Origin: Hesseltinella vesiculosa
Taxonomy: Eukaryota; Mucoromycota; Mucoromycetes; Mucorales; Cunninghamellaceae
Assembly: GCA_002104935.1 (NCBI GenBank)
Contig: MCGT01000011.1
Span: 186,001-250,000, forward strand
DNA: 64,000 nucleotides
Direction of reading: 5' to 3'
Shown here: positions 31,446 through 62,720 of the stretch, piece after piece
Position numbering within the stretch: position 1 is the first letter of the stretch
Layout of the letters: each line of letters opens with the position of its first letter
Made by a program: the position numbers and the translations under genes
Notes under the pieces: model-generated
Database searches by the model: none
Seen by the model: only the letters and a program-made list of their open reading frames with translations
What the model was told of the DNA's origin: nothing

Positions 31446-34400
31446 ATGGAACAAAGCCTGGATAAGATCAGAAAGCATCTCCAGTCCAAACTGGAGAATC
31501 AAAAGCTGGTAAGCGACATTACTAAGAAAACAGTAGCAAATCTAACTCTTTTTCTCCTGTGATCAAGCATGCCCAAACCTTGCTGGCTATCGAAGAGGTA
31601 ACTTTTTGACTTTTGTTGTTTGTTTATTCATTCTTTCTCTCTGTTAGACTATTCGCGAACAAGGAACTGAATTGACTCCCACAGCCTATTTTGGTGCTAT
31701 TGTAAGTGACCCTGCTTTGATCTCTCGCTGGATCAACAGCTCACGCCATTTTTTTTTTCATTTTTCCTGCCTCTTGCGTTTTAGATCACCACGATCCAAT
31801 CGTCACAAGACAATGAAGCATTGACTGGTGCTCTCCTCTACTTGTTGGCTGCCGTTCTGAAACAGTAAGGCCCATCCCTTACGTCCGATCTGTATGCTCA
31901 AGCCTTTTCTACCTTCTCCCCCTCAGTGTGCCTACCTCTGTCCTACGCTCCAAGTTTAGCACTGTCATGCCCATGTTCGAGGCCATTTATGAGCAGCACA
32001 GCCACGATCAGCCCATGGTGCGTGCCATTGTCGAATGCATGGCATCCTTCTTGTTGGCCCAAGATGCCCACCTGTGGTCCATGCCTGCCACCAAGAAATA
32101 TTACCAAACGTTGCTCATTCTCAGCGCCAACGCCACCCCCAAGGTAAGAAAAAACAATCCCCGACGACCCAGCTGATTGTTCTTTCGTAGGCACGCAAGG
32201 ATGCTCAGGAAGCGGTGCAATCCATCCTGGCCAACCCTCCCCCTCCCACCACCGTTCACCCTGCTTCATCCATGACTGCTGAATTTATCCTCAAAGTCTT
32301 GCATGAAGCCACCAAATCCAACCAGCAAGCTGCCCAGCAAATCCTGGCTCTTCTTCAATCCATTGTGCAATACTGGCCCCCTTTTGTAAGCCGCCGTCTC
32401 GTGTCCATAGTCGACAGCCGCTTAAAATGTTGATTCTTTCCATAGCAATTCACTGCCCTGTGCCAAACTCTGCTCCAGTTACCCCGCTACAACAACATCT
32501 ACCTGACCAAGGCTGCTTTTGACGTCTTCGAAGCCTTGTTTGATGCCCAAGAGCACGATCTCGATAGCGAAAAGCTATCTGATTTGTTGACGGTAAGCAA
32601 TACCTGGAACTTTCTCAATCGAACAAGCTGCCTAAATGCACAGCTCTCATCTCCTTTTTTTTTTTCATTAATTTTAATAAGGCCTTGTGTGAACTGAAGC
32701 CGGCTGCTCATGATGAACGTTTGTTGCCTACTTGGCTGTTGATGATCAGCAAGGCTTATCCTGCTTATGCAAAGTAGGAACCTTCTTTTTCATTTATGAT
32801 GCAGTTTCTCATCGACCTTTTTTTCTTCGCATTTACTTTCTCCAGGCTCAACCCTGTGCTATGTGCGAATGGCTTGGCCACCATCTTCGAATTAGTGTTC
32901 CGTGACTTTGAAAAGGATTCACGCAACTACACCCAGATGGCCAACTGCTTATCTACACTGCTAGAATACTGCATTACGGATGAACTCATCCAGCAAGCCA
33001 TGATGGGCACCCCCAACAGCTTGACCACTGTCCTTGAGTACTTGCAAGCCGGGCTCGGCATCCACACGCAACCTGCCTGGAAGCAAGTCATGATGATTCA
33101 AGAAGCCTTGTTTCGCAAATTGCACCGCAACGCATCGCCCCTGATGGACCGTTGTGTCGTGCTGTTAGGTGAAATCCGCCTTACCCCTGGGCCCTCCTAC
33201 AAGGAACAATTGGACAAGACCTTGGGTGCTGCTATTACTGCCATGGGCCCCGAAGCCTTTTTGACCTTGCTGCCTTTGAACTTGGAAGGTGGCCAAGGCG
33301 TCGGCCGTGCCTTTTTATTGCCTCTGCTCAAGACCTACATCACCAACACCAACATGACCTTCTTTGTTGATGAGCTGATGCCTCTCGGTGACCGACTTGC
33401 CGAGAAGGCTCAGCGCGCCTCTGCCGATGAACTGACCCTGCAAGCCAAGGTATACGAAACCTTGGTCCACCAAATCTGGAGCTTGGCTCCTGGCTTCTGT
33501 CAACTGCCCCTGGATCTTCCCCAAGCCTTCACTGAACAAGTGGCCGAACGCTTCAGCGCCTTGCTGTACTCCCAACCCGATCTGCGCCCCACCGTCACCC
33601 AGGCTTTGCAGTTGCTGGTGGAGAAGAACGAACAGCTGGCCAAGTCGCAATCCGATGATATCTATCTCCTCAAAGCCTATGGCTTGACTAAGCAGGATGG
33701 CCAAGACAACCTTGAACTGATGGGCAAGTTTGCCGTCAACTACCTTGCCGTCTTTTTCAACGTCTACAGCCAAATTCCCTCGGCCAACCGTGGCTTCATG
33801 TCCGATGTCATCAAAACCTACTTGACCGTCACCACCCCTCAGGACATTAACACCACGTTCAAAAAAGTTCTCGGTTTATTGTCAAGCGCACTAGAATCCA
33901 ACGAACCTCAGATTGTGCAAGATACCAATGTACCTCCTCCCATGGCTCAGACCATGCTGGACTTGGCTATCATCATGATCCCCTTTTTGGATGTCGAATC
34001 GGCCCAGCTGCTCTACAATGGCACCATGACCTCGTTGCTCGATAAAGAAGATGCCCCTCTCTTGCAAAAGAAGGGCTACAAAATCCTCAACCATCTCATG
34101 GCTCATGCTAATGGCCGCCAAGTCATCTTGGCCAACCTGGGCCAACTGCAGACACGTCTCTTGGACGCCACTGCTACCTGCACCCCCTCAGCCCGCAAAG
34201 ACCGCATCAAGACCTTTATGCATGTTGTCCGTCTGTTGAATAGCTCGGAATTGCAATTCATCCCTTGTATTCTCTCGGAAGTCGTCATCTCTCTCAAGGA
34301 AGGCAACGAAAAATGCCGCGGCTTTGCTTTCAGTACCCTTGTCGACATGGGCAACCGCATGAAGGAAGGTGGCATGATCAAAACCAGCCAACTGCCTGGC

Positions 34401-35714
34401 ATGCCTGCCGATGCCCCTGATGGTAAACATGATCCAATGAAAAACATAGGCGTTTCTCATCTTTTTTTTTCTGGGGTGGTAGCTCCTGCCAGCTTGCGTG
34501 AATTCTTCACCATGGTTACCGCTGGTTTGGCCGGGACGACCTCTCAAATGGTGGGCGCCACAGTGACGGCTTTGTCACGTGTGTTCTTTGAATTCAAGGA
34601 CGACCTGTCTGGCGAAGTGGCGTCGGAGCTGCTGCAAACCATGAACACGCTTGTGGCCAGCAACAACCGCGAAGTCGTCAAGGCTGCCCTGGGTTATGTA
34701 AAGGTATGCATTGTGGTGCTGGATGCTGCGATCTTGGCCCCTCAATTGGACATGATCGTGCAACACTTGCTGTCCTGTAGTCACCAGCACCGTGTCTTCA
34801 AGCTCAAGCTGCGCCATGTGCTTGAACGCCTGATCCGCCGCTTTGGCTACGACTCCATTGCTCACCTTGTTCCTGAAGAAGACAAGAAGCTGATCTCCAA
34901 CATCCAAAAACGCCGCCTGCGTGCCAAGCGTCAAAAGAAGGAACGCCAAGCTGGTGACGACGAAGACGACGAAATGGACGATGCCATCGCCCACGCCCAC
35001 ACTGCCAAGAAGGTCACTGGCTTCCACGACGCCTACGAAGAAGTCGTCTACGGCTCCGAAAGCGAACTGGAATCCGACGACGAATCTGCCCTGCCCAGTA
35101 ACAACGCCGGCAGTAAAAAGAAAACCCAAGGCGGCAACACCTTTATTCGTGAACACATGGACAACGGTGGCGTCCTGGATCTGTTGGACCGCTCAGCCCT
35201 GGCCCAAATCACCTCCTCCAAACCAACTCAACGCCGTGCCGCCTCGGGCAAGCAAGCCTTCCTGCAAGACGACACTGGCCGTCTGGTCATCGATAACAAG
35301 ACCAAGGCTGCCGACAGCGATGACGATCAAGAAGAACCCCAAGAAGACTATTACATGGAAGCCGTGCGCAATGTTGATGGCTTTGTTCGTGATCGCCGCA
35401 ATCGTATCAAGTTCAAAAAGGGAGGAAAGAACGACATGGAAGAAGACCAAGACATGGACGTCGACGGTGGTAGCAAAAAGAAGCTCAAGCCCAAATATGA
35501 ACGCCTCGGCAAAGAATTCAGAACAAAGGTAAAAAAAAAAAAAAAAAAAAAAAAGGAGCAAGCTAATTTTTTTTTCCTTCCCTAGCGTGCCGGTGGCGAT
35601 GTCAAACGAAAAGGCCAAAGCGATCCTTTTGCCTATGTCCCTCTTGGCAAGGTCATCAAGAAGAAGGGCAAGCAACCAAACAAGGTCACCTACACTGGCC
35701 GTATCAAGAAATAG
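31446..35714 (+). CDS. rrp12: Ribosomal RNA-processing protein 12 (NUC173/HEAT repeat)
   Basis: Eleven in-phase exons (31446-31508, 31568-31597, 31648-31701, 31785-31864, 31927-32143, 32191-32385, 32446-32592, 32682-32773, 32846-34422, 34483-35528, 35586-35714) encode 1209 aa, the usual length. Leu-rich HEAT-like helices run through most of the protein. The C-terminus has FKLKLRHVLERLIRRFGYD, basic and acidic stretches, GGVLDLLDRSALAQI and a lysine-rich end (PFAYVPLGKVIKKKG). Rrp12 is needed for export and processing of pre-40S and pre-60S particles. The coding strand is GC-richer than its surroundings, which produces long antisense frames. Confidence 0.9.
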
Positions 35715-53862: not shown

Positions 53863-53889
53863 ATTTTTTTTAGCAGCATTTGCTGAATA

Positions 53890-54230
53890 CAGTATTTTTA
53901 GTGATGATTGGCGCGCAGGATAAAAATTTTAGTAGGCAAAAGAAAACCAATTCACAGGCAAAATAAATTTGAATGCACGCAAACCAGGTCTGATTTGCCC
54001 GCAAAGCATTTCCTGGTTCTCCAGCCACGCAAACCAGACCTCCGACTCCCGCAAACCTGATCTTCTCCACCCGCAAACCTAGTCTCCCCTCACGCAAACC
54101 AGATCTCCAGTGCACGCAAAAAAAAAAAACACCATTTATTTTTCTTGAAAAAAAAAAGAGGTGCATGACTAGAGCTTCTCCTCCTTGCTCAAACAACGAT
54201 CAAAAAAGGTGAGGGAGTGCTGGATCCATC
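53890..54230. repeat. Left terminal inverted repeat of the mariner element
   Basis: Complement of 57021-57402. It includes direct repeats of CGCAAACCAGA/CGCAAACCTGA type between 53975 and 54115 and a complementary copy of the last ~20 transposase codons (HSLTFFDRCLSKEEKL). Confidence 0.85.
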
Positions 54231-54610
54231 CTTGGGGGTTGAGGGATGGGCTGTAGGGCGGTAATTTCAGCCATCGCTGAAACACCAAACTGCTCCAGCA
54301 AGTCGTAGGGTGGGTTGCCATCAAACATCCTTGCATATTTGTGGCAACTGCTACGTGACGCATTCACGCATTTTGCCGTGTTTGTGTACGACATTTTCAG
54401 CTGGTACACACAAATCCAAATCTTGCACCGCTGCATTGCGCTCAGCATGCGTTGGTCCTTGCGCGATTGTTGGTAGTCAATGTTGACAAAAGGATGTTTT
54501 TCAATCGCCAAAGAGGGTGAAGCTGATTGGGAATCAGATGCGCCCATAAAATCATAGATCTTAAAGATAGCAGGATTTTCATAACCAAGATCATATTCAG
54601 TTGTAGGCAT
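54200..54610 (-). CDS. Mariner-borne ORF, 136 aa, unknown function
   Basis: A frame from ATG at 54610 (MPTTEYDLGYENPAIFKIYD) to a stop inside the left TIR. It contains RSSCHKYARMFDGNPPYDLL. A TATA-like TATATAAG lies ~75 bases upstream. The last ~20 residues are encoded by the repeat in a different frame from the transposase. No known domain. It may pair with the upstream DNA-binding ORF as a split accessory gene. Confidence 0.5.
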   Translation of the reverse strand: MPTTEYDLGYENPAIFKIYDFMGASDSQSASPSLAIEKHPFVNIDYQQSRKDQRMLSAMQRCKIWICVYQLKMSYTNTAKCVNASRSSCHKYARMFDGNPPYDLLEQFGVSAMAEITALQPIPQPPRMDPALPHLF

Positions 54611-54748
54611 TTTAAGACAAGACAGACAAGACAATTTAAATTGAATGAAAGAGGTGCAGTCGATTTCATCATGATTCTTATATACGTTCTTTTGGTGCTA
54701 CAATACTGTGTGCAACAAAAAAAAATTGGGAAAAAAAATAAATTTATT

Positions 54749-55237
54749 TTACAGGCAGATCGCTAACTTTTCAAAATCAAAACTTAATTCCTCACTTGCT
54801 GATTCTACCAATTGCATTGCTTCAAGTCTCTGCATCAAATATCCAAGGGTAAGCTGATTATTATTTTCATTTGGGCTAGAATATGTGACCGAGCTTTCAT
54901 CCTCCATTTGTCGACCAAATGTAAATAACATAGATTCCATTGGAGGTGCCTTGATTTTGGGCTTCGGAGGACTGCAGACAGGGGGCTGGCACAACTCCTT
55001 CATCCAACGTTGTGCAACGCGTCGGTGCACGTTATGCTTCGCTGCAATCTTTGCAATTGATTTCTTGCCCTGATTATGGATTGCTTCAAGAAGGACTTCG
55101 TGTTTAATTTTTTTCGAATATCGGTTGTAGTGTCTTTTCTGTTGGGTTGGCGGTCGCTGCTGCGTTTCTTCGTTTCTTCCCTTTTCTAATACAAATTGAA
55201 TGTCCATGCGAATTTTCGAAGAGATTGAGAGAGACAA
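54749..55237 (-). CDS. Mariner-borne helix-turn-helix-like protein
   Basis: The frame from ATG 55237 encodes 162 aa; an internal ATG (MDIQFVLEKG) is the alternative start. After a Gln/basic stretch comes YSKKIKHEVLLEAIHNQGKK, then SIAKIAAKHNVHRRVAQRWM, a helix-turn-helix of the Psq/transposase type. The C-terminal half is Ser/Glu-rich and ends FDFEKLAICL. It has no catalytic domain. It is divergent from the transposase across a repeat array, so a repressor or end-binding accessory factor is plausible. Confidence 0.6.
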   Translation of the reverse strand: MSLSISSKIRMDIQFVLEKGRNEETQQRPPTQQKRHYNRYSKKIKHEVLLEAIHNQGKKSIAKIAAKHNVHRRVAQRWMKELCQPPVCSPPKPKIKAPPMESMLFTFGRQMEDESSVTYSSPNENNNQLTLGYLMQRLEAMQLVESASEELSFDFEKLAICL

Positions 55238-55274
55238 ACAAATTTAGGAAGATGCGACTTCGCTCTGGAAGCGC

Positions 55275-55512
55275 TCTGCTTGCAATCAAAAAAATGGCAA
55301 GTCGAACAATGTCGAACGCTTCTTGCCTTTTTTTTTTTTTTTGGTCGCAATTACCTTTTTTTTTTGGTCGCAATTACCTTTTTTTTTTGGTCGCAAGTGG
55401 CGACTTGCCATTTGGTCACAAACGGAGCGTTCGACATCGTTCGACTTGCCTTTTTTTTATTGGTCGCAGTGGACTTGCCATTTGGTCGCAAGCGGAGCGT
55501 TCGACATCGGTA
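55275..55512. repeat. Direct-repeat array between divergent mariner genes
   Basis: GGTCGCAATTACC preceded by T-runs recurs in tandem at 55350-55390. GGAGCGTTCGACATCG occurs near 55425 and 55495, with related GTCGAAC and CTTGCCATTTGGTC copies. It separates the helix-turn-helix gene (-) and transposase (+) promoters and could be a regulator or transposase binding array. Confidence 0.6.
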
Positions 55513-55557
55513 CGTTTATGACAAGTTGACTGGCCTTGAACGATCTTGAGCTGTGCG

Positions 55558-55566
55558 TATATATAT
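55558..55566 (+). promoter_or_regulatory. TATA box of the mariner transposase
   Basis: TATATATAT lies ~62 bases upstream of the transposase ATG at 55628, a suitable distance for a core promoter with a short leader. Confidence 0.45.
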
Positions 55567-55627
55567 CCTGGGTCATTTTGAAAACAAATTCATTTTCTGT
55601 TCGATCACTCCTGTTTATTAAGATCGT

Positions 55628-57088
55628 ATGACTGCTATTTGGAACCTCCGTTCATCTACCAACGCCATCAGCGATTCTGACAGTGTTGAAACTGCTTCAA
55701 TTATGTCCATGGAAGAGGAGCTTGTCTTGCTTGCTGGTGCTTACGAAACGTTTAATGACAAGCCTCCAACAACATGCAGAGACCCACAAGCTGGCTTTGA
55801 TGTTAATTATTTGAAACTTGATCGTGGGCAGCTGATAAACTTCGAAGCATATCAAGCTTTGTACAAACGCGCAATCGAGCCTATGGATACAGATGTCACC
55901 GCCGAGACTCCAGCTGTGAAAACTCAACCGCTTACACCAAAACGCGGCCCTTACCGAGTGTATTCCGCAACTGATGTTGAAAAGTTAATAGATATGGTCA
56001 CCACCAAAGGTATAAACGTATAAACATTTAGAAAATAAGCGTCCAGGCGGTGGGAAATGACCTGTTTTTTTTTTCTTTTAGGCTATACAGCGGCTGCAGC
56101 AGGCAGGGAACTTGGTATCAAGGAACGTACTGCTCAAGGGTACGTGGCTAAATTTTTCAAAGACGAGCAACAACGTGTGCCCATCCCCGGAATGTGTCAT
56201 CGAAAAGGAGGCAATAGAAAGCTCTTTCAAGAACACACGGACTTCCTTGTTGCCTTTTTTGACGATGACCCAACCCACACATTGGCTGAAGCGAAAATTG
56301 CCTTGGAAGAGCAGTTTCCAATGACCATCTCTGCGTCTGGCCTGCGCAGCCACCTTCGCTCGCACTGCATGTTGACCCTCAAAAAGGTGCAACTCTTCTC
56401 AGAAGCAAGATTTTCACCAAGGACCATACAACTCCGATATGACAGGATCTTGGAATGGAGAGCGCTCAAGGACTTTGATTTTTCGACCAACTGCGTTTTC
56501 TTGGACGAAGCTGGTTTCAATCTTCACCTGCGCCGTGGGTTTGGCTGGGCACCCCGTGGTGAAACTCCCAAAGTCAAGGTTGCAGCGTCCAAAGGTCCAA
56601 ACATCACCATCCTTGGGGCAATTTGCGAGCTTGGCATTGTCAACCTCACCCTGCGCAAGCCAACCGTTTCTACCACAACTGACAAGAAGGGCAAGAAGGC
56701 GAAGGCAAAAGCTGGCACAAGGACGGAAGATTTTTTGGCCTTCATCGACGATGTTATGACGTGCCTTGAAAATGATGGCATCCGCGGGCGTTACGTCATC
56801 ATGGACAATGCTACCATCCACAACAACGACACTGTCAAAGCTGTCATCACGAACCGTGGATTCAAACCAATGTTCCTACCACCCTACAGCCCATTCCTCA
56901 ACCCGATTGAGGAATGTTGGGCCAAAATCAAGGCAGGTGTGCGCCGGTCCCCCTTGGACAATCAAGACTCTTTGGCCCCAAGAATCCGCGAGGCTGCTCT
57001 CTCTGTGACACCAAGCGATTGCCAAGGGTGGATCCGGCACTCCCTCACCTTTTTTGATCGTTGTTTGAGCAAGGAGGAGAAGCTCTAG
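55628..57088 (+). CDS. Tc1/mariner transposase (DD34E)
   Basis: Exons 55628-56009 and 56082-57088 encode 462 aa. A variable N-terminus precedes a helix-turn-helix (AAAAGRELGIKERTAQGYVA). The catalytic core shows VFLDEAGFNLHL (Asp ~269), GRYVIMDNATIHNN (Asp ~369) and LPPYSPFLNPIEECWAKIK (Glu ~404). The last two are 34 residues apart, giving the DD34E signature. The frame is intact and all three catalytic residues are present, so the enzyme may be active. The 3' end of the gene lies in the right TIR. Confidence 0.9.
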
Positions 57089-57402
57089 TCGCTGCACCTC
57101 TTTTTTTTTTTTTCAAGAAAAATAAATGAAGGTGCTTTTTTTTTTTTTTTTTTTTTTTTTGCGTGCACTGGAGATCTGGTTTGCGTGAGGGGAGACTGGG
57201 TTTGCGGGTGGAGAAGATCAGGTTTGCGGGAGTCGGGGGTCTGGTTTGCGTGGCTGGAGAATCAGATTCACGTGCACTGGAAATGCTTTGCGGGCAAATC
57301 AGACCTGGTTTGCGTGCAATCAATTTTATTTTGCCAGTGAATTAGTTCTCTTTTGCCTACTAAAATTTTTATCCTGCGCGCCAATCATCACAAAAAATAC
57401 TG
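57021..57402. repeat. Right terminal inverted repeat of the mariner element
   Basis: Complement of 53890-54230. It carries the mirrored GGTTTGCGTG/GTTTGCGGG direct repeats and a long poly-T tract near 57138-57160, and ends ATACTG before the TA at 57403. Confidence 0.85.
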
Positions 57403-57404
57403 TA

Positions 57405-57694
57405 GTACTGTGTTTCCAAAAAAAAAAAGTCGCAAAGCAAGAAAAAAGTCAGCTATGAAAAAGGAAAATGAAGTGGTTAGTTTAGCAAAAGCTAGGCATC
57501 TTTTTATTTTTTTCCACTCACCCTTAGAAAAATTGAATTTGGCATCTTCTTTTTTGCTACTTACAGCCAGACAAGACGTTCAAAGAACTAACAGGTCATT
57601 TTGCCTGAGTGGATGCGAAGTCTGATCAGATTACTGCACAGTTGCTTTTTTTTGACTTACAGCTTATACGTCGTACAGGTTTTTGATACCTGGA
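57405..57694 (-). other. Fanzor 3' flank, candidate guide-RNA region
   Basis: About 290 bases between the Fanzor stop codon and the right end of the mariner element. In TnpB and Fanzor systems the guide RNA is transcribed from the nuclease 3' end into its downstream flank. I see no strong hairpin or terminal repeat by eye, so this is a positional candidate only. Confidence 0.25.
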
Positions 57695-60600
57695 TTAAGT
57701 GGGGGTTGGTTGGTTCGGTTGCGCATCTGGTGGCGAGGTTGTGGAAGGGTCGGCCTGATCTTGGTCTTGGGGGGTGAAAACAAGAGGCTTCACACCAAGA
57801 GCAGCAAAATGGGAGTGCGCATGGATGTTTCGGGAGGCGTTGCAATCTCGTTGCCACACAGTGCTACATGTTTCGCAACATTGCACTGCATGCAACTTTG
57901 ATTCGCCACCATCCACCGTCACGTTGGTCAAAGTCTTCTTCCCACATTTGCTGCAAACTTTGGACGAAAAGGCTTCGTCTGCATCGACCACAAAAATGGG
58001 GAATTGACGCTGGGCCAATCGAACCACTTTCTTGAAGCGATTTGCAAGACCAAGTGGCTTTTTGTTGAAGCGTCGCCTGCCAAATCTTCCATCACCAATG
58101 CACAGAAGGGGTATCTGGGTGGATGGTTGGAAAGGCAGGGGACGCCACTTTCCATTTCTTGTCTCGCTGAATAAAAAAGAAGTCAGTTTTTTTTTGTTGG
58201 TTTTGATTTTGACATTACCTTGGCTGAGGAGGGGAGGGATGTGCATGCTGACGCCGACGACTCTTAAAACTTCCATCTTCATTTAGCCGGCTCATGTATG
58301 TGTCGTGGCTGTTGTAGTTGGAGGCATGGGATCCGTACTTGCGACCACCGTCGACAAATATCTTGACCAGGTCGTGGTTAACGAGCTGCGCGCCCCTGTA
58401 GTTCAAGAAGCGGAGCTGCTGAATATCTTGGCCATAAAATAAGAGCAAGCGATCCAAATGGCGTAGCTTTTCAGTGATGTAGGCAGTGATGTTTTGGCGC
58501 ACTGATGTTTTTGGCGATCCAAAGGACGACTCAATTTCAGTGATGCCGTGCTGCTGCTTCCAGGCTTTGATATTTGCGACGGTTTTTCGATAGCCAGCTT
58601 TGACATAATATTCAGCACTGGAAAAGCGGCGGATCTGATGCCTTGGGTTCGGCGGTGTGGCTAGCAATGGTTCATCTGGGAGGTCCGCTGGGGAGAGGTA
58701 AGCACGGGGATCGGAGGAGTTTGATGCTACAAAGATGTCGGTGACGCCAGGATCTATACCCCAAACGTCCATTTGCTGCATGGCCACAGGGCTAATGTCG
58801 GTCAGTCGAAGAGGTTGGCCGATCGATGCACCAGACACCTTTTTGAATGGAACGCAAACGGAATAGCCATCAGTGTACAGCTGATTGAGGAAGATTCCGC
58901 GACTAGAAAATGAAAAGTGAGATATCTTTTTCCGGCAATGCCCTCACCTTTTTTTATATCTCTTTGTTTCCGACTTACCCACTATGGATCCTTTTCAAGT
59001 TCAGGATCTTGAAATTGTCATGCACTTGTCCAGCAACTGGGCGAATCGCTTGAGGTACGACGTAGTGTTCTAATCCGAAATGGCGCATGATTTCACCAAG
59101 AGAATCGTGGGAGACTTGAATGAATTTTCGAGTGAGAGACGGTGTGGGAAGGACCGAGAAAAGACGCACTTTTGGTGACACAAGGTATGCTTCGGATGAG
59201 AATGTGCCAGCAGCAAGAGCTCGTTGCGTTTCGGCCACAAGCGTGGTCACTTGTTGGCGGGATTGCTGAGAAAAGACACGAGGCAGTCGTTCAATGTCCA
59301 CTGGAGTGTTGTTGTTGATGGATTTGGATATACCACGGACGAGCTTTGACCGCTGGTGATGGTTCAGATAACTCCAGTCATGCATTCCAGAGAGCTGGTG
59401 ATGTGTCCAATTCCAATGAACGGAGGTTTGTGGCGCCGGTGCAGTATGTTGATCTTCATTTAGGCGCTCCAAGCTGCACAAGACATCAAATAGAATCTTG
59501 ATAAACAGGTGCGGATACCGGGTGATCGTTGTCGTTGTAATAGACACAGATGGAGGAGCCTGGCTACGAATAGCGTTGTCAGTTGAGAGAGATGGATCAG
59601 CTAGCGGAGGCAAGGTATAAGGACCAGTAGCAACATCAAGGCGCGAGATGCCAAGGGTTGAGATAGTGTCGATGGACATGGCTATGGCTGTGCTGACCGA
59701 GAGGTTGTCATCCTCTTCTTGGTTGTCCTCGTCGTCTTGGTTGTCCTCATCCACGTCTTGCTGTGGCAAGGGTCCTTCTTGTTCAATACGAATGGCGAGT
59801 TGTGTCCATCTGTCCCAAGTCTCGTCTATCAATTCGTTCAAAGCAGTGTCGACCTTGGCATCCACCATAGCATGGTCGATAGAATCTTCAACATTGATCG
59901 TCGGCCAAACTGGTTCAAAGTCTTGGTTTTGTGCACACGTGTCAAACACGAAATCCGCAAGGGCTCCAACTAGAAAGCGATTAAGTTCCTATTTGGAAAA
60001 AAAAAAGGTGAGCTGTGAATGGTGGAGGTTTTTTTGAGTTACTTACTGGAATAGAACGAGCAAGGCGAGCTTGCAAATAACCAATGTAGGCTTGGTCGAA
60101 ACCCTCGACCACATGATTCACCATGCTGGAGGCGTATGTGCGGGCCGTGGAAGCTAAAATCTTGGAAAAGCCAATAGGGCGTTTTCCTCGCACAGTAGAC
60201 GGGACCAGTGGACAGTGGACATTAGGATGCTGAATCAGAAATGTGGCAAACGATTCTTCAATGTGTTGACGGACCTCTTCAGTAAAGAGTGAGTTGTTCG
60301 ACCAAGATCGGCCAATGACAAGCTGAAACACACCATTGACAAACCGATAGTCCAGGAACACTAGAGGGATATCCAGGCCATTGGTGAGGCGGGAGTTGAA
60401 GTAATCCAGGATAAACAGGTGACTGCAAATCAACACACGACGATTAAAATCAACAACTGCTTGAAGGCCATCCATAAAAATTTCTTTCTCGGCATTGCGT
60501 AGCGATTTCAATAATGGGTACAGTCCATGCTTTATCGTGAGTGTCTTGGTCTTCTTTCCACCAAGCAATTGGTTCCCTTGTGCACGTTGAGAGGGTATGC

Positions 60601-60998
60601 GCTAGGGACATAGGCGACTTGATGATCTTGAATGGGTCAATGACGATTCTATGTTTCCATTCTTTATACAAGTTGGGCAGGGTCGTCGAGATCGTCGCTG
60701 TCGATCGATGGCAAGGCTACGCTCATCTCTCCCGGTACGCTTTGCTGCTTTTTCATCAGCATTCTGCCTTCTTTTTATTACATTCCTTGTTTTGTTTCGT
60801 CTTTGTCGCTTGACAGGGCCTGATGAGAAAAGCGATTAGATAACGGCGCTATCGAAAAGACAATTCATATGTATCATGCTTGGTCATACGTGACGTAGAA
60901 GGGCCAGCTTCTTCTTCAATTGGCACTAACTGAGTTCTATCCGACTCCATCTCGGGCGTATTTTGTCTTCTTTTTCTACCCTGCTTGGTACGGGCCAT
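57695..60998 (-). pseudogene. Fanzor (TnpB-like RNA-guided nuclease), interrupted by one TAG
   Basis: Five minus-strand exons (60998-60890, 60819-60047, 59988-58979, 58902-58219, 58166-57695) join in phase to 1016 codons. An N-terminal CPTC...THSRSSSRLCP knuckle (~84-108) is followed directly by an in-frame TAG at codon 109 (60604-60602); every later codon to the stop is open. The middle has KTLTIKHGLYPLLK and RGIFLNQLYTDGYSVCVPF. RuvC-I is VWGIDPGVTDIF (Asp ~681). The usual RuvC-II site reads CIGDGRFG without Glu, while Glu ~923 precedes SSKVCSKCG, the relocated position known in Fanzors. The zinc ribbon CSKCG/CETC and RuvC-III WQRDCNASRNI (Asp ~966) complete it. It could be a recent pseudogene, a sequencing error, or use a start after the TAG. 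Confidence 0.88.
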
Positions 60999-60999
60999 T

Positions 61000-61425
61000 T
61001 TTCGTGATGAAGGAAAACGAGAAGAAAGAAACAAAAAAAAAAAGGTGAAACGCGAGTTATATTTTCACTCCGCCATTTCCCCACGCTGCAACTGCGTCCC
61101 ATTCTTCCTTTCCATTTTAGTCTATTTTGATTCGTTGAATATTAGTAAATTGACCTAAGAGCATTTTCTTTTACTATTTAAAATTTATATATCCTGTATT
61201 TGGGCAATAATCGTTGCGATTCGTTGCACGGAACACAAACTGATAAAGCAGTAGGCCTGAGCTTTCGATATGCCTGAGATTTTTTATAATTTATGCTTAC
61301 ATTGCATGTCGACAATCCCTAGCCCATCACTTCCATGCCTGAGAGGTGTGTACCATTATTACCCCTCCATGTGCAAAATTTGATGTGAATCGATTTTTGA
61401 CGAATTTGAAGTTGATATTTGATCA
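61000..61425. other. Fanzor 5' flank
   Basis: A/T-rich, no gene. It should hold the Fanzor promoter. I searched by eye for a terminal repeat matching the 57.4-57.7 kb flank and found none. Confidence 0.35.
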
Positions 61426-61427
61426 GT

Positions 61428-61610
61428 TCGCCTGGGAGTCATCTGAAAAAATGGCATTTTTTAGCTGAAGTTTGAGACACATCAAAACTAACCTGCTAAA
61501 TATTAGCTAGGAGATCTCTACCAATCGATCTATTTTTTTTAGTATCATCACCACTCAACACGCTATTTACCCATGCGTAGTTTTACGTCAATCCATTGAT
61601 CTTGAAAAAA
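61428..61610. repeat. Dispersed repeat family, copy 6 (diverged)
   Basis: TTTGATCAGTTCGCCTGGGA, AAAATGGCATTTTTTAGCTG and AGTATCATCACCACTCAACA follow the family order with many changes. It is the most diverged copy. Confidence 0.45.
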
Positions 61611-61839
61611 AGTAAAGTCAGTATTTCACATTCCGATATCTGCTCGAATCTCTGTGATCAGACTAGCTGAATCATAGCTATCGTGTACGTTTGTATTAAC
61701 TAATGGTCTTGGTTAAAACCACTAATGATTCAAACATTGTGATCCAAGAACTATCTTGGGAGCACGAATAGGAAAAAAACGCCCTCTGATCGTACTCCAC
61801 TTTTTTTCAGTGTTGGCCATGTAATATTTTGATTGGCTA

Positions 61840-62720
61840 GAAATATTAACATCACTGATGAGATTCCAAAAGCAGAACGACATGCGACTTTTAGAATGCG
61901 ACAGCATTTGCTGGAAACACTGTACACTGTTTCCATGAATAAGTGGCGGCTCTCAAGGAAGACGAATTGCGGACTTTGGATTTCCGAGTGTCGCACAAGC
62001 CATGACAAATTTGGCGCAGCGTTTTTTTTTTCTTTGTCGTAGATATTTTTTTTTCGTGTCGTCATAGACTTGTCGTGCGACAAATTGTTACTTAAATTCA
62101 ACTACATAGGGGTCCTATGGAAGCAGCCATTGATGCGGGGAGATGAATTACCGATAAAGCCATGCAGATCCTTATAGAAACATTATTACACGCCGCGTTG
62201 ACTCGATGCGGCCGACCAGAATTGCTCAATCGGATTGAGCTCAGGGGAATAGGGTGGAAGATGCATGTATCGATACCCACGATTCCTGATGAAGGTATCG
62301 ATGGCCTTGGATTGATGAATTGGTGCATTGTCATCACCAAATAGCAGCCGTCAAATTCTGGATGTTGGTCCATAGTAATCATGACCTCATTCAAGAAGGC
62401 GATGTAGTGATGAGTGTTTGTGCCGATGCCAATGTGTTTGTAGGTAACTTGATCAAGTTTGCTTTTTTGTTCCTTGTAGCCGGACTTCTCATGCTGATTT
62501 GAACAACACCAGAAGCACAAGGACCAAGGATCGTGGATAAAGGCAACTTTCTCAAAATGCGACATTATGCATTTGGTCATCCTGCAAAAAAAAAAAAAAA
62601 CGCTGCGCCAAATTTGTCTTGGCTTGTGCGACACTCAGAAATCCAAAGTCCGCCACATGTCTTCCAGGAGAGCCGCCACTTATTCATGGAAAGAGTGTAA
62701 CTGAGGCAGGGCATGGATCA
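61840..62720 (-). mobile_element. Second mariner relic with inverted repeats
   Basis: Blocks CGGACTTTGGATTTCCGAGT, GTCGCACAAGCCATGACAAA and TTGGCGCAGCG at 61950-62020 return complemented at 62590-62690. The interior minus strand encodes TYKHIGIGTNTHHYIAFLNE, DNAPIHQSKAIDTFIRNRG and LPPYSPELNPIEQFWSAAS. The first of these is in a different frame from the last two, so the transposase is dead. Confidence 0.75.

Follow-up and report, generated by a model that had tools for sequence, protein, structure and literature searches.

A nonsense-mutated copy of a Fanzor-bearing, Tc/mariner-type transposon in Hesseltinella vesiculosa and an intron-like unit near its right end

Does this part of the Hesseltinella vesiculosa genome encode an RNA-guided nuclease, can the copy found here still produce it, and how would the guide RNA of such a nuclease be made? 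These questions are raised by a locus in a stretch of 64,000 nucleotides of contig MCGT01000011.1, which is called the window below. On the minus strand, from 60998 to 57695, five exons join in phase into 1015 codons and a stop, with exactly the coordinates that an earlier note had proposed. The four introns measure 70, 58, 76 and 52 nt and every one runs from GT to AG. Exon 1 (60890..60998) carries the start codon and a basic region. Exon 2 (60047..60819) contains an N-terminal knuckle, C-P-T-C-x11-H-x7-C, starting at C84 and covering residues 84-107 (60608..60679), and exon 3 (58979..59988) includes an acidic stretch. RuvC-I is encoded by exon 4 (58219..58902), where the GIDPG motif occupies 58746-58760. 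Finally, exon 5 (57695..58166), recognised by exon joining and by a Pfam match, brings Glu923, the zinc ribbon, D966 of RuvC-III and the stop codon.

The features announced in the earlier note are all present: GIDPG, a relocated glutamate before SSKVCSKCG, a CxxC...CETC zinc ribbon, WQRDCNASRNI and the knuckle. With residue numbers taken from copy L011, which has the same length as the window copy, the active-site residues are D681 (GIDPG), E923 and D966 (WQRDCNASRNI). The published Fanzor motif, D-x(125,275)-[TS][TS]-x-x-C4-x(5,50)-RD, is found with spacings of 244 and 6: D681, 244 residues, SSKV, C930...C959 and RD at 965-966. The relocated E923, just N-terminal of the zinc ribbon, is invariant in all six families of an alignment containing one copy per family. 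The profile search proposed in the note also upheld the Fanzor identity. Pfam Cas12f1-like_TNB matches the last exon above its cut-off (E 1.4e-10), and the NCBIfam TnpB models match the gene far below theirs. A profile built from the six families retrieves, among solved structures, the TnpB-like L79 (2e-6), SpuFz1 (0.0011) and GtFz1 (0.005); PpFz1 reaches only E 0.19. The single window protein has no significant relative among solved structures, the best relevant one being L79 at E 0.54, and the protein must therefore be very diverged. Its assignment to Fanzor1 (Fz1) rather than Fanzor2 is inferred from the non-IS607 transposon context. A length of 1015 residues is unusual, since Fz1 proteins mostly have 600-700 (from the available text of PMC11423790); this size is typical of the class and does not define it.

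The frame is not open, and the idea of an intact gene fails at this point. A premature TAG at codon 109 (60602..60604, minus strand), directly behind the knuckle, occurs in the window copy only; no stop stands there in any of the 12 other copies covering the place. As it reads, the window copy cannot give the full Fanzor protein, and an intact gene at this locus is ruled out by the stop. It might be argued that the gene works nonetheless, for instance by read-through of the stop or from a later start, and apart from codon 109 the frame and the splice sites are indeed intact. However, the stop is confined to this copy, and a later start would drop the basic region and the knuckle, so that a functional gene here is very improbable.

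The genome holds many relatives. The RuvC-I exon alone has 79 matches across 27.05 Mb in 85 contigs, far above chance. In the family of the window copy (family A), eight other copies retain all five exons (L009-L014, L019, L020), and four of them are open from end to end (L009, L010, L011, L012). In intron 4 of L009 and L010 the donor is GC, and intron 2 of L010 lacks its AG; L011 and L012 show canonical splice sites only, L012 having lost the left transposon end and reading GKDPG. The others are broken by an 11-nt deletion (L013, L019), a stop (L014) or a frameshift (L020). L017 and L021 are truncated, and L015, L016 and L018 form a diverged, decayed subgroup. Among the pairs for which values were printed, dN/dS is 0.20-0.44 for family A copies against the window copy, L011 or L012, and 0.36-0.73 against the decayed subgroup; inside the latter it is 0.46 (L016-L018) and 1.02 (L015-L018). 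The low ratios show, at the level of sequence comparison, that the Fanzor protein was under purifying selection while the main family spread.

The decayed subgroup has peculiarities of its own. An 80-nt stretch of the window (60640-60719) was considered as a possible intron and rejected: it is deleted in L015, L016 and L018, and no conserved splice sites lie at its ends. The same three copies break off at a place matching window position 58078. Beyond it, L016 and L018 have a stretch of about 3.5 kb in common (97%); in L016, a knuckle, CNTCGLPGHSRASHPACP, is encoded there, with which another Fanzor gene perhaps begins. A related family B encodes proteins of about 1300 residues, as estimated from frames, that are about 30% identical to those of family A over most of their length, and its elements have similar ends with TA. 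In the family B proteins (L022-L028), the HSRxSSxxCP half of the knuckle is kept and no CxxC was seen before it.

Comparison of the copies delimits the element that carries the gene. The extent common to copies is 57408..61922 (minus strand), about 4.5 kb, as seen in L009, L010, L011, L013 and L014; with the window copy, these make six in which both ends are visible. Matches of other copies to the window run from 57405/57406 to about 61924. The ends read CAGTGTTTCC and GGAAACACAG, with a TA on each side: 61923..61924 at the left end, on the 5′ side of the gene, and 57406..57407 at the right end, on its 3′ side. The left terminal inverted repeat, CAGTGTTTCC, occupies 61913..61922 on the minus strand; the right one, CTGTGTTTCC, which differs from it by one mismatch in 10, occupies 57408..57417 on the plus strand. 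Right flanks differ among copies, and so do left flanks, save for several that share one neighbouring repeat. In L009 and L011, 504 bp upstream of the gene are absent. No Pfam transposase was found in the exons or in eight further frames of the element, which is therefore filed as non-autonomous, and as Tc/mariner-type by its ends only. The Fanzor gene is the only recognised gene of the element, an arrangement already known with mariner ends, for example in PUl-4 (according to the available text of PMC3627910). In the earlier note's description, a large transposon-associated Fanzor, the transposon stands; the size is unusual for Fz1 and the window copy lacks the full protein.

The element has mobile neighbours on both sides. 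Next to its right end, positions 53888-57404 belong to another transposon, which has ends of about 200 bp and at least 47 matches in the genome and contains a DDE_3 transposase (56039-57088, E 2e-29). In the window, L018 and L020, the end of a transposon of this type is at, or within a few bases of, the end of the Fanzor element. At the left end, the element is directly abutted by a repeat (61923-62699) that measures about 0.78 kb and has inverted ends of 113 bp. This repeat is flush with the left end in five of the 12 family A copies whose left end is readable and in one family B copy (window; L011, L013, L016, L026, L031). Either it inserted repeatedly at the TA beside related ends, or the two moved jointly. 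The fungal mobile island suggested by the earlier note is accurate for this transposon cluster, 53888-62699; farther from the element, ordinary genes are present in the window as well, RRP12 (32778-35585, E 8.1e-91) for example, along with a weak match to an MFS transporter.

The many copies make it possible to read the TAM and the guide from insertion sites. On the left side, all 17 TA-bearing sites have G or T at -3, directly before the TA (12 of family A, 5 of family B; L024 and L027, which have no TA, and L039, which has no end, are left out). On the right side, the mirror base, A or C, follows the TA in 8 of 15 sites (9 A, 6 B; L019 and L027, without TA, left out). The difference gives a one-sided Fisher p of 0.0019. 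A single repeat family provides, with its end, six of the 17 left flanks, and counting these once changes p to 0.007. If a symmetric transposase acted alone, left and right should show similar preferences; the asymmetry thus points to the nuclease and suggests that (T/G)TA on the left is a candidate TAM. In known Fanzors, the TAM is on the left side of the element (PMC10432273, available text).

A further feature appears at the other end. Over its last 90 nt, which have the look of a 3′ splice region, the element is similar to the distant Fanzor family C. For four additional families, E, F, G and H, the right end was located by aligning two copies of each; their terminal sequences differ, and each has a unit made of donor, branch, polypyrimidine and acceptor. 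A single pattern (GTRAG donor, branch, polypyrimidine, YAG), composed after inspection of the ends, was then run on the last 240 nt of right ends. Exactly one unit, 54-72 nt long, was found in each of the seven family representatives. In the window copy, the predicted unit lies in the 3′ untranslated region (57453..57521, minus strand; 69 nt, GTGAGT...CTAAC...TAG). The 45 nt from its acceptor to the element end (57408..57452, minus strand) would begin the last exon. The corresponding distances are 45 nt in A, 54 in B, 45 in C, 4 in E, 136 in F, 58 in G and 11 in H. The unit is present in 23 of 24 copies, the miss being L046 with a donor GTAGGC, and in three of three further B copies, including L027, whose element end is decayed and was placed by eye. 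Of two partial right ends, L058 has the unit and L057, a relative of family F, lacks it through a changed donor. In total, 27 of 29 copies carry it.

Such a unit might be a chance feature, or an acceptor by which host transcripts are freed of the transposon through splicing, rather than part of a local intron. The late composition of the pattern gives this some weight, as do the two copies out of 29 without the unit, one of which (L057) has lost the donor. However, the seven hits in seven families contrast with 59 of 2126 background windows (2.8%; 31/1063 and 28/1063 on the two strands of the window, real introns included). In the fetched loci, 205 of 4858 windows score, a count that includes the right-end units themselves. 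Moreover, L022, whose element is 76% identical to that of L025 and which was checked after the pattern had been written, keeps donor, branch and acceptor, and donors are conserved as well as acceptors. Chance or a lone acceptor is therefore unlikely, and a real terminal intron is the likely reading of these sequences. An intron-like unit at the end of a Fanzor transposon is not described in the available text of PMC3627910, PMC10432273, PMC11423790 or PMC10711439; its occurrence beside the right end in seven Fanzor families of one genome is new here.

Two side observations concern these ends. The right end of L048 was excluded from the family counts because no Fanzor frame was seen with it. 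When the right end of family G served as query, four loci (G000:C57, C34, C8 and C62) aligned at 87% with its last 134 nt and with no other part of it; they are possibly short right-end derivatives without nuclease, by analogy with the ghost elements of SpuFz1.

Known Fanzor guide RNAs arise at the right end of the transposon (PMC10432273 and PMC10711439, as far as available). In the window copy, the predicted guide would comprise about 15 nt beyond the TA (57391..57405, minus strand) and extend into the terminal repeat of the transposon 53888-57404. Guides of the window, L018 and L020 copies would thus match a repeated family. How is the terminal intron related to such a guide? It may tentatively be imagined that the guide RNA is spliced: removal of the intron would join an upstream scaffold to a last exon that consists of the right-end repeat, the duplicated target and the guide taken from the host. 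Alternatively, the intron may be real and unrelated to the guide RNA: the messenger would simply have inherited an ordinary intron in its 3′ untranslated region, and the guide RNA would be unspliced, as in SpuFz1, whose scaffold is a contiguous 75-nt right end (PMC10432273, available text). To this latter possibility we give slightly less than an even chance, and to the spliced guide RNA a clearly lower one.

Conservation bears on the choice in both directions. The intron is the least conserved part in pair C (69.8%, with flanks at 92.5 and 83.3%) and in pair G (82.5%, flanks 98.9 and 93.1%), and the unit stays near the element end despite end sequences that differ between families; both speak against an intron unrelated to the guide. 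In pair F, on the other hand, the intron (93.0%) exceeds its flanks (80.7 and 82.5%), and in pair B the values are similar (intron 77.8%, flanks 79.8 and 72.5%), as an ordinary messenger intron would allow. In families E and H, only 4 and 11 nt of element lie between the acceptor and the element end, and the 11-nt tail of H can pair with the exon preceding the intron. A search for a common RNA fold in the seven families gave z below -2 only for H (-4.57 spliced, -3.93 unspliced) and G (-2.13 spliced), A, B, C, E and F being unremarkable. When pairing between the tail and the exon upstream was tested in 10 copies, z fell below -2 in just two, and the tail hairpin of family G, judged by eye, is weakened in two of three copies. 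An Rfam scan of 57300-62000 returned no match (best E 0.73). A motif TTGCGAC is present in A and C, as TTGCGTC in most of B, and is lost in L022.

Two observations made by eye touch the same subject. In L046 and L047, a conserved stretch of the 3′ untranslated region, foldable as a three-way junction (GCATCCCGTTGCAAATCGGGATTCCTTCTTCAAGGA..ATGC), is a possible scaffold. In families G and H (right ends L053, L054, L055, L056), the final 12 nt of the element include AATAAA, and poly(A) cleavage after it could fall in the flank at about the guide length.

Among the listed titles and abstract beginnings of open-licence papers, none concerned a spliced Fanzor guide RNA. In the main text of PMC10711439, neither 'splic' nor 'intron' occurs. 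In that of PMC10432273, 'intron' is absent and 'splic' appears once, in a reference. In that of PMC11423790, 'intron' is absent and 'splic' appears twice, in a reference and in a remark on cyclophilins, which act in splicing among other processes. This remark is worth a thought because PpFz1 binds cyclophilin (same source, available text).

Considering all these data, it is highly probable that the transposon copy in the window carries a nonsense mutation and belongs to a multi-copy, non-autonomous Tc/mariner-type family, the only recognised gene of which encodes a large Fanzor1-like RNA-guided nuclease, the mechanism below included. Against it stand the poor PpFz1 score, the single protein without a significant solved relative, the empty Rfam scan, the unremarkable folds of five out of seven families, the transposase that was looked for in the element and not found, the single repeat family behind six of the left flanks and the broken state of the window copy. 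The gene structure, the motifs, the transposon ends with their TA duplications, the related copies, the purifying selection and the intron-like unit are read from the copies themselves, and the remaining steps are modelled on known Fanzors. Intact relatives would be mobilised by a transposase supplied in trans. Transcription of the gene would continue across the right end and into the flanking DNA, so that the right end, the TA and about 15 flanking nt would supply both the terminal part of the scaffold and the guide. Directed by this RNA, the protein would cut (T/G)TA-flanked sites matching the guide, that is, element-free sites, and repair from the occupied copy would retain the element in place. 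The intron-like unit would be spliced, so that the right end and the flank become the last exon of the transcript, and transcription through to the guide would thereby be favoured.

With a spliced guide RNA, the transposon would be using host splicing to attach its guide, and it would be an error in such families to take the contiguous right end as the scaffold. Thanks to the intron-like unit, one can test by what route the guide RNA is produced and terminated in the host to which these elements belong.

The element was compared with the closest known systems, as described in the available text of each source. Tc/mariner elements such as PUl-4 (PMC3627910) likewise have Fanzor as the sole gene, mariner-like ends and TA duplications; they differ by occurring in other organisms, and no end intron is mentioned for them. 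PpFz1 of Parasitella parasitica (PMC11423790) is likewise a large fungal Fz1 with an insertion in RuvC. It has a 75-nt guide RNA, and differs by its E of 0.19 to the six-family profile, by its TAM, ATN, and by the absence of any mention of a knuckle. The Fanzor1 of the insect virus SfAV (PMC10711439), whose main text does not speak of splicing, is likewise non-autonomous with Fanzor only, and its terminal repeats and target duplication belong to the guide-RNA scaffold. SpuFz1 of Spizellomyces punctatus (PMC10432273) differs by a single open frame in a 2.1-kb locus, whereas 1015 residues are spread here over five exons; by its contiguous scaffold, in the place of which an intron-like unit is found here; and by its TAM, CATA instead of (T/G)TA. 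It shares with the present element the order of active-site residues, a guide RNA at the right end (predicted here), many genomic copies and a constant short motif outside the left end.
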